Part shown: one piece after another, positions 14,920 through 57,229 of the stretch
How the letters are laid out: each line of letters begins with the position of its first letter
Position numbering within the stretch: position 1 is the stretch's first letter
Origin: Arthrobacter sp. PM3
GTDB lineage: Bacteria; Actinomycetota; Actinomycetes; Actinomycetales; Micrococcaceae
Assembly (NCBI RefSeq): GCF_003352915.1
Contig: NZ_CP022314.1
Span: 2,701,272 to 2,765,271, forward strand
Length of the DNA stretch: 64,000 nt
Reading direction: 5' to 3'
Made by a program: the position numbers and the translations under genes
The notes under the pieces: generated by a model
The model's input: the letters and a program-made list of their open reading frames with translations, nothing else
The model's database searches: none
Told to the model about the DNA's origin: nothing

Positions 14920-16119
14920 GTGCGCAACTATTCGACTGAAGCAGAGCCCACGACCCTCGTGGGGCCGTGGCTGGAGCCCCTCCTGCCGGAGCTGATCGCC
15001 TTCCGCCGCGACCTGCATGCGCACCCCGAACTGTCGTTCAAGGAGTTCCGGACCACCGACAAGCTGGCGAAGCGGCTCGAGGAAGCCGGGCTCAAGCCCC
15101 GCCGCCTGGAAGGCACCGGCCTGACGGTCGACGTCGGACAGGGACCCATCGCCACCGCCCTCCGCGGCGATATCGACGCCCTGCCGATCATCGAGGAAAC
15201 GGGCCTCGAGTTCGCCTCCAAGAACCACGGCGTCACCCACGCCTGCGGCCACGACGTCCACACCACCACGATGCTCGGCATCGCCTTGGTGCTGCAGCGC
15301 ATGCACGAGCGCTCCCCGCTGCGGGGCACAGTCCGGATCATCTTCCAGCCCGCCGAGGAGACCATGCCCGGCGGCGCCACCTCCTGCATCGAGCAGGGCG
15401 TCCTGGACGGCGTGCCCCGCATTCTCGCGCTGCACTGCGACCCCCGGATCGAGGTCGGCAAGATCGGCACCCGGATCGGGGCCATCACCTCCGCCTCAGA
15501 CACCATCAAAATTGAACTCTCCGGCCGCGGCGGACACACCTCCCGCCCGCACCTGACCGAGGAACTGGTCTTCGCCCTGGCGCAGATCGCCGTCAACGTT
15601 CCCGCCGTGCTGTCCCGCCGCGTCGATGTCCGCAGTGGCGTCTCCGTGGTCTGGGGCCAGATCTCCGCGGGCTCGGCCCCCAATGCGATTCCCGGCAGCG
15701 GGTACATGGCCGGCACCATGCGGTGCCTGGACCGCGAGGCCTGGCACGACGCCGGCGAGCTGCTCGACGAGGTCGTCCGGCAGATCGCCGAGCCGTACGG
15801 CGTCGACGTCCACCTGGAACACACCCGCGGCGTGCCGCCGGTGGTCAATTCCGAGCACGAGACCGCGCTGATCGAGGCCGCTGCGCGCGCCGAAATCGGC
15901 GAGAGCGCCGTGGTCCTGACCCCGCAGTCCATGGGCGGCGAGGACTTCGCCTGGTTCCTGGCCGACACCCCCGGCGCCATGATGCGCCTTGGCACCAAGA
16001 CCCCCGGCGGGGAAGAGTACGACCTCCACCGCGGCGACTATATCGTGGATGAGCGGGCCCTCGGCCTCGGCATCCGGGTGCTTACGGCAGCGGCCCTGCG
16101 CACCATCCGCGACCTCTAA
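14920..16119 (+). CDS. M20-family metal-dependent amidohydrolase
   Basis: 399 residues, typical of the M20D aminoacylase / IAA-amino-acid hydrolase / N-acyl-diaminopimelate deacetylase group. Metal ligands are visible in THACGHDVH, in QPAEETMPGG, in the LALHCDP region and in the late MGGEDFAWF block, and the lid dimerisation domain begins near SGRGGHTSRPH. GTG 14920 is set by the -10 box six bases before it. The substrate (N-acyl amino acid, hippurate-like or peptide) cannot be told; neighbours give no clue. A 567-base intergenic region with a repeat array follows. Confidence 0.9.
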   Translation: MRNYSTEAEPTTLVGPWLEPLLPELIAFRRDLHAHPELSFKEFRTTDKLAKRLEEAGLKPRRLEGTGLTVDVGQGPIATALRGDIDALPIIEETGLEFASKNHGVTHACGHDVHTTTMLGIALVLQRMHERSPLRGTVRIIFQPAEETMPGGATSCIEQGVLDGVPRILALHCDPRIEVGKIGTRIGAITSASDTIKIELSGRGGHTSRPHLTEELVFALAQIAVNVPAVLSRRVDVRSGVSVVWGQISAGSAPNAIPGSGYMAGTMRCLDREAWHDAGELLDEVVRQIAEPYGVDVHLEHTRGVPPVVNSEHETALIEAAARAEIGESAVVLTPQSMGGEDFAWFLADTPGAMMRLGTKTPGGEEYDLHRGDYIVDERALGLGIRVLTAAALRTIRDL

Positions 16120-16218
16120 AGTCCCGGCCCGGGCCCTGTGCCCGCGGAGTTCCACCACCTTTGTCTCGCTGTCCGGAGGGGGTATGGCGCGGGATGGCCT
16201 GCCTCGTGCGCAACCGTT

Positions 16219-16619
16219 GAGCATGCTCTCCGGGTGGGCCGGCGCGTGCGTAACCATTGAGCATGCTCTCCGGGTGGGCCGGCGCGTGCGTAACCATTGA
16301 GCATGCTCTCCGGGTGGGCCGGCGCGTGGACATGTGGGGCATTTGTCCGTTGCTGCGGCCAGGGGGAGAGCATGTCCCGCGGCGTGGGGGACGAGGAATG
16401 GGCATGCCCTTTGGTAGGGCCGCTGGGTGCGTGAGGAATGGGCATGCTCTCCTGTTGGGCCGGAGGGTGCGCGAGGAATGAGCATGCTCTCCGGGTGGGC
16501 CCGCGCGTGGACATGTGGGGCATATGTCCGTTGCTGCGGCCAGGGGGAGAGCATGTCCCGCGGCGTGGGGGACGAAGAATGGGCATGCCCTTTGGTAGGG
16601 CCGCTGGATGAGCATGTCC
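16219..16619 (+). repeat. Array of ten palindromic GCATG repeats with a 128-bp direct duplication
   Basis: Ten cores of the form RGCATGYYC occur at 16219, 16259, 16299, 16368, 16400, 16440, 16480, 16549, 16581 and 16610. Three are in tandem with an exact 40-bp period (16219-16338). A block of about 128 bp (16299-16426) is repeated 181 bp downstream (16480-16607) with only about three differences. Cores are perfect palindromes (GAGCATGCTC or GGGCATGCCC) or near-palindromes (GAGCATGTCC). The array fills most of the 567-base gap between the M20 gene and ohrR (16120-16686). Flanking bases 16120-16218 show nothing recognisable. Open frames across it are repeat artefacts. Confidence 0.9.
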
Positions 16620-16636
16620 CCTCGGGAATAGTTGGG

Positions 16637-16680
16637 TTGTGCACAACTGAATTGTGCACAGGTAAATTGTGCGGTAGTCT
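16637..16680 (+). promoter_or_regulatory. ohrR promoter with three phased TTGTGC operator repeats
   Basis: TTGTGCACAA (16637-16646, perfect palindrome), TTGTGCACAG (16652-16661) and the half-site TTGTGC (16667-16672) recur every 15 bases. The second copy supplies the -35 hexamer TTGTGC (16652-16657), 17 bases before the -10 box TAGTCT (16675-16680), which ends six bases before ATG 16687. The layout implies autoregulation by OhrR and a leaderless ohrR mRNA. Confidence 0.7.
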
Positions 16681-16686
16681 CGAACT

Positions 16687-17151
16687 ATGACGACGCCAGA
16701 GACCGCCCGCCCCGCCGGTCCGGAAGCCCTGCGCCTGAACCGGCAGGTGTGCTTCGCGATGTACTCGGCCTCCCGCGCCGCCACGGCGGTGTACCGGCCC
16801 ATGCTGGAGGAGCTCGGCCTGACGTACCCGCAGTACCTGGCCATGCTGGTGCTGTGGGAGGCGGAACCGCGCAGCGTCCGTGAACTGGGGGAGGAGCTCG
16901 GGCTCGACTCCGGCACGCTCTCGCCGCTGCTCAAGCGGCTCGAGGCCCTCGGGCTGGTCGAGCGCCGCCGGTCCGCCGAGGACGAGCGGCGGGTCGAAAT
17001 CTTCCTGACCGACGCCGGAGCGGCCCTGCGTGAAAAGGCCGGCGGCATTCCGCAGCGCCTCGCTGACGCCGCCGGGCTCACCGCCGTGGAACTCGACCAG
17101 CTCCGCGAAACCCTGGGCCGGCTGACCGCCGCGCTGCACGCCTCCCACTGA
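16687..17151 (+). CDS. ohrR: Organic hydroperoxide-sensing MarR-family repressor OhrR
   Basis: 154-residue MarR-type winged-helix regulator. The N-terminal LNRQVCFAMYSASRA block matches OhrR, with the peroxide-reactive cysteine at C22; the tyrosine just after it and Y-rich YRPMLEELGLTYPQYLAML are also OhrR-like. The recognition helix region is LGLDSGTLSPLLKRLEALG and the wing RRSAEDERRVEI. No second conserved cysteine is obvious, so it is likely a one-Cys sensor that uses a small thiol, presumably mycothiol here. It sits upstream of ohr and under three operator-like repeats. Confidence 0.93.
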   Translation: MTTPETARPAGPEALRLNRQVCFAMYSASRAATAVYRPMLEELGLTYPQYLAMLVLWEAEPRSVRELGEELGLDSGTLSPLLKRLEALGLVERRRSAEDERRVEIFLTDAGAALREKAGGIPQRLADAAGLTAVELDQLRETLGRLTAALHASH

Positions 17152-27445: not shown

Positions 27446-28195
27446 ATGGAGTTCATTAACGAGGCCGTGCTCCATGCCGCGGGTCAGTGGTGGATCTACC
27501 CCCTCCTGCTGGTCTTCTTCTTCGTGGACGGCTTCGCGATGGTGGTCCCCAGCGAGACCCTCATCGTTGCCCTTTCGGCGTACTCCGTGCACAGCGGCCA
27601 GCCCAACCTCTGGATCCTGGGGCTCACGGCACTCGTCGGGGCGATGGCCGGCGACAACATGGCGTACCTGCTCGGCCGGAAGATCGGCCTGGAACGGTTC
27701 CGCTGGATGCGGAAGCCCAAGGTCCAGAAGGTTTTCGCCTGGGCACACTATGAGCTCGAAAAGCGCGGCGCCGTCCTGATCTTCACGGCCCGCTACATCC
27801 CGTGGGGCCGCGTGGCCGTCAACTACGTGGCGGGAACGACGGCGTTTCCGCACCGGAGATTCTTCTTCCTGGACGCTTTCGCCTGCCTGACGTGGGTCGC
27901 CTATTCGATCGGCATTGGCCTGCTGGCCAGTTCCTTCCCGTGGCTGCACCACAACCCGCTGCTCAGCGCCGGGATCGCCGTGGTGTTCGCGATCGTGCTC
28001 GGGGTCCTCATCGACCACCTGCTGCGCTGGTGGCACAAGCGCCTGGGGCGCCACGACACGCGCCCGGACCGGACCGCGGAAGCGCCCGCCCCGGAACATG
28101 CGGCCCAGGGGCACGCTACCCAGGGGCACGCTACCCAGGGGCACGGCGCGATGCTGGCCGGCCCGGGCTCTGAAGCCGGAGCCTCCGGAAAGTAG
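27446..28195 (+). CDS. DedA-family membrane protein (second of a tandem pair) with a His-rich tail
   Basis: 249 residues. It keeps the DedA pattern, with VVPSE in place of PPIPSE and TARYIPWGRVAVNYVAGTT as the conserved Arg block. The C-terminal 35 residues are hydrophilic and contain a short tandem HATQG repeat encoded by a 15-bp DNA repeat. AGGAG lies 10 bases before ATG 27446; upstream in-frame codons are not conserved. Tandem duplication with the preceding gene is old, as the two proteins share only the motif regions. Confidence 0.9.
   Translation: MEFINEAVLHAAGQWWIYPLLLVFFFVDGFAMVVPSETLIVALSAYSVHSGQPNLWILGLTALVGAMAGDNMAYLLGRKIGLERFRWMRKPKVQKVFAWAHYELEKRGAVLIFTARYIPWGRVAVNYVAGTTAFPHRRFFFLDAFACLTWVAYSIGIGLLASSFPWLHHNPLLSAGIAVVFAIVLGVLIDHLLRWWHKRLGRHDTRPDRTAEAPAPEHAAQGHATQGHATQGHGAMLAGPGSEAGASGK
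28106..28145 (+). repeat. 15-bp tandem microrepeat inside dedA-2
   Basis: The unit CAGGGGCACGCTACC occurs about 2.7 times and encodes QGHAT copies in the protein tail. In-frame repeats of this kind can change copy number by slippage. Confidence 0.9.
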
Positions 28196-32466: not shown

Positions 32467-33186
32467 GTGGACCAGAACCGAGTGGACCAGAACCAGGAAC
32501 ACACAGTGCCGGAAAATACAGTGCCGGAAAATACAGCGCAGGCGTCCCGCCGGCCGTCCCCACACGACCTCGAGGTCCTCAGCCGCCAGCTGGGCCGGCC
32601 GGTGCGGGACGTCGTCGAAATCCCGGCCCGCTGCGCGTGCGGCAACCCGCTCGTGGCGGCCACCTCGCCGCGGCTCAGCAACGGCACGCCGTTCCCCACT
32701 ACGTTCTACCTCACGCATCCGGTGATCACGTCCGCGGTGTCACGGCTGGAAGCGGCCGGGCTGATGAACGAGATGAACGACCGGCTCGCCGCCGACGCCG
32801 GCCTCGCCGCCCGCTACCGCGACGCCCACGAGGCCTACCTGGCCTCCCGCGCCGAAATCGGCGCGCGCTCCGGCACCGGCGCCGTCCCGGAGATTGACGG
32901 CATCTCCGCCGGGGGCATGCCGACCCGCGTCAAGTGCCTGCACGTCCTGGTGGGCCATTCGCTGGCCGCCGGGGCCGGCGTGAACCCGCTTGGCGACGAG
33001 GCCATCGCGGCCATCGCCGAGTGGTGGACCGCGGACCGCTGCTATTGCGACGGCGCCTGGGACACCGGGGGAGAGGCCCCTTCCCGGGACCTCAGCCGCC
33101 ACGGGCCGCAGGGCCTGCCCGAGATCGTGGGACGTCCCGCCCCCGTGCGCAAGTCCCGCACCGCCGGTACGGAGGACGTAAAGTGA
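32467..33186 (+). CDS. DUF501 family protein
   Basis: 239 residues; the DUF501 core runs from about residue 35 (DLEVLSRQLGRPVRDVVEIPARC) to the end and contains the CACGNP, FPTTFYLTHP, RVKCLHVLVGHSLAAG and YCDGAWDTGG segments with several conserved cysteines and histidines. Function unknown; the gene is nearly always between ftsB and ppx in actinobacteria. The start is uncertain: GTG 32467 has GGAAGG upstream, but GTG 32482 is also possible because the first 30 codons are short repeats. The stop overlaps the ppx GTG. Confidence 0.88.
   Translation: MDQNRVDQNQEHTVPENTVPENTAQASRRPSPHDLEVLSRQLGRPVRDVVEIPARCACGNPLVAATSPRLSNGTPFPTTFYLTHPVITSAVSRLEAAGLMNEMNDRLAADAGLAARYRDAHEAYLASRAEIGARSGTGAVPEIDGISAGGMPTRVKCLHVLVGHSLAAGAGVNPLGDEAIAAIAEWWTADRCYCDGAWDTGGEAPSRDLSRHGPQGLPEIVGRPAPVRKSRTAGTEDVK
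32468..32533 (+). repeat. Two 15-bp duplications at the 5' end of the DUF501 gene
   Basis: TGGACCAGAACC occurs twice 15 bases apart (32468 and 32483), and CAGTGCCGGAAAATA occurs twice in tandem (32504-32533). Both keep the reading frame and duplicate five residues. Confidence 0.9.
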
Positions 33187-57187: not shown

Positions 57188-57229
57188 GTCCGTTCGTACT
57201 GCACCGTCCGTTCGTACTGCACCGTCCGT
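57188..57229 (+). repeat. 18-bp tandem repeat upstream of mca
   Basis: GTCCGTTCGTACTGCACC occurs twice in tandem (57188-57205, 57206-57223) with a partial third copy. Similar GCACTGTCCG phrases flank it at 57171 and 57243. It lies in the divergent DUF4307/mca promoter region. Confidence 0.9.

Follow-up and report, generated by a model that had tools for sequence, protein, structure and literature searches.

Why does Arthrobacter sp. PM3 carry ten GCATG palindromes within 401 bp, between an amidohydrolase gene and a gene that resembles ohrR? The initial annotation of this 64-kb stretch of DNA (the window) proposed either a REP-like intergenic repeat family of the genus that has expanded here or a multi-site platform for a DNA-binding protein, and it placed the array just upstream of a redox-controlled promoter. 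The array, at 16219-16619, consists of ten 10-bp cores of the form RRGCATGYYC, which are separated by 40, 40, 69, 32, 40, 40, 69, 32, and 29 bp from start to start. It is placed after the stop codon of the amidohydrolase gene (14920-16119, + strand; TIGR01891, 342.6 bits versus a cut-off of 153.75) and ends 67 bp before the start of the downstream gene (16687-17151, + strand). This gene belongs to the MarR family and is OhrR-like: its best NCBIfam match is NF052638 (OhrR) at 159.3 bits, which is under the cut-off of 200. The gene after it encodes Ohr and passes TIGR03561.

A pattern count confirmed the ten + strand matches to RGCATGYYC that had been described (at 16220, 16260, 16300, 16369, 16401, 16441, 16481, 16550, 16582, and 16611; the 10-bp cores begin one base before each of these). 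Elsewhere in the window there are 3 same-strand matches, and 0.019 would be expected in 401 bp (Poisson P = 1.6e-24). The description of three cores in a 40-bp tandem was also correct: three 40-bp units, with one GAGCATGCTC core apiece, span 16212-16331, and units 2 and 3 differ from unit 1 by 1 and 4 bases. (TRF reports 3.1 copies with 97% matches.) A larger block at 16298-16429 is duplicated at 16479-16610. The reported offset of 181 bp stands, and the reported size of about 128 bp with about three differences was nearly right, as we find 132 bp with 4 mismatches. GGACATG at 16328-16334 and CATGTCC at 16371-16377, which had been noted as able to pair, are both at those positions. The window also contains other perfect short tandem repeats at 28104-28145, 32503-32536, and 57188-57229, with units of 15, 15, and 18 bp and 2.3-2.8 copies.

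The repeat unit is a 79-bp dyad, in which two inverted 10-bp cores are 69 bp apart and the symmetry axis is occupied by a split core, GGRCAT-N9-ATGYCC. By arithmetic from the aligned units, the center-to-center spacings from core to half-site to half-site to core are 29, 11, and 29 bp. The array contains two dyads. Dyad 1 (16299-16377, 79 bp) has cores at 16299-16308 and 16368-16377 and split half-sites GGACAT (16328-16333) and TTGTCC (16343-16348). Dyad 2 (16480-16558, 79 bp) has cores at 16480-16489 and 16549-16558 and split half-sites GGACAT (16509-16514) and ATGTCC (16524-16529). The single cores include GGGCATGCCC, a perfect palindrome that is present at both 16400-16409 and 16581-16590, and GGGCATGCTC at 16440-16449; the last core of the array is GAGCATGTCC at 16610-16619.

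The array spacings of 69, 32, 29, and 40 bp recur throughout the PM3 genome. Among 163 gaps between neighboring cores in PM3 arrays (drawn from 17 loci), 33 are 69 bp, two are 70 bp, and none is 68 bp; the 32-bp class has 37 gaps, the 29-bp class has 17, and the 40-bp class has 6. The 69-bp spacing is fixed, and this is free of search bias. The two cores of a dyad also have a polarity. We scored the orientation of each core with a profile of its flanks that was built without the locus being tested, and of the 33 gaps of 69 bp, 24 were outward on both sides, none was inward, six had both cores facing the same way, and three had one unscored side. (A profile trained on the scored units themselves gave 23/33 outward, versus 24/33.) The satellite cores favor distances of 32, 29, and 40 bp, and of 88 such cores, 50 face away from the nearest dyad, 24 face towards it, and 14 were unscored with the locus-out profile.

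We then asked how common these sequences are. In the PM3 genome (one 4.35-Mb contig), GAGCATGCTC has 46 matches, versus 3 for the reversed word, and TGRGCATGYYC has 147 matches on the + strand and 175 on the - strand, whereas its reversed form has 8 on each. A strict dyad pattern has 53 copies, which is the highest count among 206 genomes of the same genus; 50 of the 53, as listed, map to 29 separate places. Across the genus, 57 of the 206 genomes carry the strict dyad, with 1 to 53 copies each, and the reversed control of this pattern had no matches in any of the 206. Because 149 of the 206 genomes lack the strict dyad, the dyad is not essential for the genus. At least one of the 149 (G106) has a variant dyad whose center is one base shorter, as is the case for some copies in G086.

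For a wider survey, we used a dyad pattern with a variable center. Outside the genus, the dyad family is rare. In a sample of the family Micrococcaceae, 8 of 295 genomes had the dyad: 7 of 24 from the same genus and 1 of 271 from other genera (G029). In an order-wide draw, 3 of 396 genomes had it: 3 of 10 from the same genus and none of the other 386 (25 of which are family members that are also in the 295-genome sample). In G029, the carrier outside the genus, there are 12 dyads, whose cores and spacing are unchanged but whose linkers differ. In some of them (locus L168 is an example), runs of T and A lie immediately inward of the outer cores.

These results support the idea of a REP-like intergenic family of the genus that has expanded in PM3, given its 53 dyads (highest of 206), the 57 carriers, and its site-richer arrays: the mean number of RCATGY sites within 350 bp of a dyad is 9.3 for 11 PM3 loci versus 3.4 for 32 loci from other genomes. 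The recent local duplication that was proposed earlier is backed by the near-identical 40-bp and 181-bp repeats, which suggest that the array grew in this way. We rejected an origin from phages or plasmids, as there were no exact dyads in viral contigs and 16200-16625 had no blastn match in plasmid or phage records.

The family lies between genes. Using a purpose-written codon-based gene caller to orient the genes of PM3, we found that all 21 arrays with at least three cores are intergenic, with one overlapping a called gene end. The flanking genes are both on the + strand for 6 arrays, both on the - strand for 5, convergent for 6, and divergent for 3, with one open. Convergent placement is not clearly enriched in PM3 (6/20 arrays, with 3/20 divergent). 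In 23 other genomes, 33 of the 33 dyad loci that we examined are intergenic: 17 between convergent genes, 14 between tandem genes, 1 between divergent genes, and 1 open. As background, we used gaps of over 60 bp in the PM3 genome, including those that hold arrays (20 convergent, 62 tandem, and 24 divergent). Relative to this background, the loci of the other genomes are more often convergent (17/32 versus 20/106, P = 0.0004) and less often divergent (1/32 versus 24/106, P = 0.009). These loci are not independent, as two share an intergenic region and several are orthologs of one another; after merging the orthologous loci by hand, 13/23 were convergent (P = 0.0005) and 1/23 was divergent (P = 0.045). 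REPs of the GTAG and CGTC types are likewise mostly between tandem and convergent genes, according to an excerpt of PMC3733652.

The intergenic places that recur between genomes include sites beside alr, purH, dnaX, and a CRP-like gene. When we clustered the 114 distinct flanking proteins, we obtained 23 groups of two to four members. Most groups represent both sides of one orthologous neighborhood; four two-member groups share one side only; and one four-member group (transporter-like by eye) joins different neighborhoods. After this clustering, we set aside the idea that a recurrent neighboring gene encodes the cognate factor.

Is the array related to the control of ohrR? It might supply additional operators for a redox-controlled promoter or serve in looping. 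The distance from the array to the OhrR-like gene is 67 bp, and a second array is at the equivalent place in Pseudarthrobacter sp. PS3-L1 (L067). However, this is the sole relative with clustered cores among the 38 ohrR loci that we compared (L033-L069 and L110, of which one is from Rhodococcus, and L052, L054, and L061 have less flanking sequence, being contigs or at contig ends). In the up to 450 bp upstream of ohrR at the other 37 loci (a few with shorter flanks), RCATGY is absent from 36 and occurs once in the remaining one. The seven closest loci (L033-L039) lack the array despite the 22-38 dyads elsewhere in the same genomes, and they retain, by eye, a sequence like TTGTGCACAA beside ohrR. 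Also, elsewhere the family adjoins other genes. So the earlier link between the array and the ohrR promoter is not supported, and we rejected ohrR-specific regulation, which we now consider very improbable. Because only L067 shares the array and the seven closest relatives lack it, the array looks like a lineage-specific gain that is outside the control of ohrR.

By eye, the repeats at the place upstream of ohrR, whether palindromic or tandem, vary from species to species; examples are TTTCCCCACCTTTG..., AGCGCGAACKGRCA..., CCGAGGTGAGAG..., and ACCCAACYGAGT... (loci L033-L038, L040-L043, L046, L047, L049, L050, L055, L056, L058, L062, L065, L066, L069, and L110). This gives the impression of a competition for gene ends among repeat families, each specific to a lineage. 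In PM3, a relic of another such repeat may be present near 16147-16164.

The place downstream of purH allowed us to compare one location across species. We fetched the 3' region of purH from 30 genomes via the protein, independently of the repeat: 17 carriers (including PM3) and 13 genomes without the strict dyad. (Models of purH match the fragment along its length, with scores below the whole-protein cut-offs.) The 69-bp pair is present in 12 of the carriers (68 bp in G187), while two have a partial element (G321 and G322) and three have none (G289, G304, and G260). At purH, no cluster of cores is present in the 13 genomes that lack the strict dyad, where other hairpins are seen by eye. In six species, which were chosen for having an intact element, the outer cores are 99% identical, the inner half-sites are 100% identical, and the linkers are 81% identical, while the stretch from the stop codon to the element is 58% identical, the stretch after the element is 44% identical, and the coding end of purH is 92% identical. 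Thus, the cores and their spacing at purH persist across species while the flanks diverge. A nearly unchanged element at a shared site suggests recognition by a candidate protein.

The purH region also has a compact pair of cores, 21-23 bp apart, in 13 of the 17 carriers, with at least five T after the pair in 8 of the 13. We folded one of these pairs (-36.9 kcal/mol, z = -7.6). In PM3 and in two other carriers, the compact pair is between purH and a facing gene. It looks like an intrinsic terminator, and with its long stem and T run it resembles bidirectional intrinsic terminators; the array in the window differs from these in that no T run follows a stem, as does the family in that the same core is found at many loci. 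In G321 (L222), a deletion has removed the first core pair downstream of purH and joined the A run to a TGG; this TGG flanks the hairpin on either side, a pattern that resembles slippage across a hairpin.

Does selection act on the DNA letters or on their pairing? Two columns of the split core (41 and 57 of the aligned units) pair in 11 of 23 non-redundant units from PM3, where 12.4 would be expected. Elsewhere, the paired units number 34 of 47 in six genomes (versus 33.5 expected) and 12 of 27 in three more (versus 13.9 expected). The split-core columns vary between A and G and between C and T without a tendency to preserve pairs, which fits recognition in double-stranded DNA. The arms beside the split core do covary in the six other genomes (columns 34/64, z = 3.9; 37/61, z = 4.6; and 38/60, z = 3.2), and in both groups, one pair of outer-core columns (12/86) exceeds what is expected (z = 2.1 and 2.0).

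Folding gave results that vary with lineage. We compared true units to chimeras with swapped halves, a control that is uncorrected for the strand composition of arbitrarily oriented units and so is biased against detecting pairing. True units were more stable in the six genomes (z = -8.3), weakly more stable in PM3 (z = -2.4, a level reached by 4 of 200 chimera sets), and less stable in the three genomes (z = +2.8, with 200 of 200 chimera sets lower). Compared to dinucleotide shuffles, 26 PM3 units fold more stably on both strands (mean z = -4.27 and -4.14), versus z = -0.30 for 52 flanking stretches, and 63 units from other genomes also fold well below their shuffles on both strands. The exclusion of hairpins on the basis of counts at symmetric columns was dropped after wider sampling showed that covariation depends on the lineage. 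We rejected a known structured RNA, as 15900-17000 has no Rfam match up to E = 1. Because the split core varies without pairing and because covariation depends on the lineage, we favor sequence-specific recognition together with a constraint on the palindrome that differs by lineage, while giving substantial weight to the hairpin and selfish explanations that are considered below.

The closest known system is the REPIN, an inverted doublet of REPs that is mobilized by a RAYT transposase, in Pseudomonas, E. coli, and other bacteria. The family has features of a REP (it is a short palindromic repeat with a high copy number, and it is extragenic in PM3 and at 33/33 loci elsewhere) and of a REPIN (an inverted pair at a fixed distance, given that 33 of 163 gaps are 69 bp, with 24 outward and none inward). 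In the GI REPINs of Pseudomonas fluorescens, the starts of the invariant 16-mers are 71 bp apart, spacer length and pairing matter, and tandem clusters occur, as described in an excerpt of PMC3116915. The dyads have a similar fixed distance (69 bp), conserved ends, a variable spacer, extragenic placement, tandem clusters, and the potential to form hairpins. Unlike REPINs, the dyad has a second conserved site, split across its axis, whose half-sites do not covary. Also unlike REPINs, PM3 and 56 of the 57 carriers have no match to RAYT. The initial annotation had suggested looking for a RAYT-type transposase, and a search of the PM3 genome with PF01797 (Y1 transposase) had 0 matches. Across the genus, 2 of 206 genomes match PF01797, one of them over the cut-off, and only G295 is a dyad carrier; the model detected 5 of 14 control genomes. 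We also counted REP tags in 182 outer 14-nt arms (from 91 units) and found GTAG 4 times and CGTC 11 times, versus 5, 11, and 20 for control words, so there is no clear tag. We rejected a RAYT-driven REP, and because of the RAYT and tag results, we do not file the dyad family as a REPIN, despite the resemblance.

Other intergenic repeats are also similar in part. BOX elements are modular, with a variable number of internal units. They are an intergenic repeat family of pneumococcus, according to an excerpt of PMC3049150. The dyads and their satellites share this short, modular, intergenic build and the varying count of internal units, but the modules, the host, and the sequence are different. 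The BIMEs of enteric bacteria are intergenic arrays of REP-like palindromes that are rarely between divergent genes and whose unit number varies, as for the dyad family; unlike in BIMEs, the polarity is outward around a central dyad, and the sequence and spacing are unrelated. Gyrase and IHF are among the proteins that bind BIMEs. Binding of BIMEs by several proteins is described in an excerpt of PMC2817692. In a part of PMC12306157, a table line names Arthrobacter livingstonensis. The GCATG dyad family is apparently undescribed in the open-licence PMC literature that we searched.

We considered two other explanations for the family as a whole. The repeats might act in RNA, as hairpins at gene ends that are transcribed from either side and that terminate transcription or protect the 3' ends of mRNAs, so that no dedicated DNA-binding protein would be required. 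This would account for the enrichment between convergent genes in other genomes, for folding z scores near -4 on both strands, for the covariation of the inner arms in six genomes, and for the compact pair at purH with its frequent T run and stable fold, and the 13 genomes that have other hairpins at purH are consistent with it. But a pure hairpin would not need identical letters at dozens of loci or an exact spacing of 69 bp, and the split-core positions change without compensation. In three genomes, the true halves have no pairing advantage, and a pattern scan of 16050-16750 for a GC-rich stem followed by a T run found no terminator-like sites near the array. We consider this explanation unlikely.

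Alternatively, the inverted core pair might be a REPIN-like selfish element that replicates and is spread in trans by a transposase that is not a RAYT, or by one that has since been lost, with the arrays as by-products. The fixed-distance inverted doublet with its conserved ends and more variable spacer, the extragenic placement, and the near-identical tandem copies all point this way, as do the similar 71-bp distance in GI REPINs (in the excerpt of PMC3116915), the range of 1 to 53 copies among the 57 carriers, and the apparent lineage-specific gain at ohrR. Against this, PM3 has no Y1 transposase and only one carrier in the genus has a match, the outer arms have no clear GTAG or CGTC tag, and at purH the cores in six species are more alike than the adjacent coding sequence, so they are unlike neutral remnants. 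We view a selfish family as rather unlikely.

Instead, we propose that the PM3 array belongs, in enlarged form, to a family of extragenic palindromic repeats that characterizes the genus at large, is located mostly at the 3' ends of genes, is similar to REPINs and BIMEs, and is maintained through a candidate recognizing factor. This explanation is tentative, and we would rate it a little short of probable. From the sequence comparisons, we favor a putative multi-site platform for a DNA-binding protein. The putative sequence-specific factor, probably a dimer that reads GGRCAT half-sites in double-stranded DNA, would bind the dyad and the satellite cores. The bound site might then act like a BIME of E. 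coli and mark or insulate the ends of transcription units; possible roles include support of termination and the handling of supercoils or topoisomerases. Local tandem duplication probably enlarged the arrays of PM3, and the copy at ohrR is a probable gain of the PM3 lineage.

A broader version of this proposal, which is possible but doubtful, is a chromosome-wide marking system in Arthrobacter and its relatives, in which a putative protein reads the four-site dyad at gene ends and spreads over the satellites. If so, the protein would nucleate at the dyad, extend over the mostly outward satellite cores, and organize transcription boundaries or supercoiling; such a system would be BIME-like and would have arisen independently of RAYT transposases. 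REP-type repeats are known best in association with RAYT transposases. A family that has a similar layout and placement but no RAYT, and whose cores at a shared locus are more conserved across six species than the adjacent coding sequence, can help to test whether such repeats persist as parasites or as sites in use by the cell. With 57 carriers versus 149 genomes that lack the strict dyad, a single genus offers a tractable comparison for finding the cognate factor. We also note that transposase sequences of the IS30 and IS3 families (over the NCBIfam cut-offs) adjoin two of the PM3 arrays, at 479-1096 of locus L012 and at 2140-2946 of locus L032.
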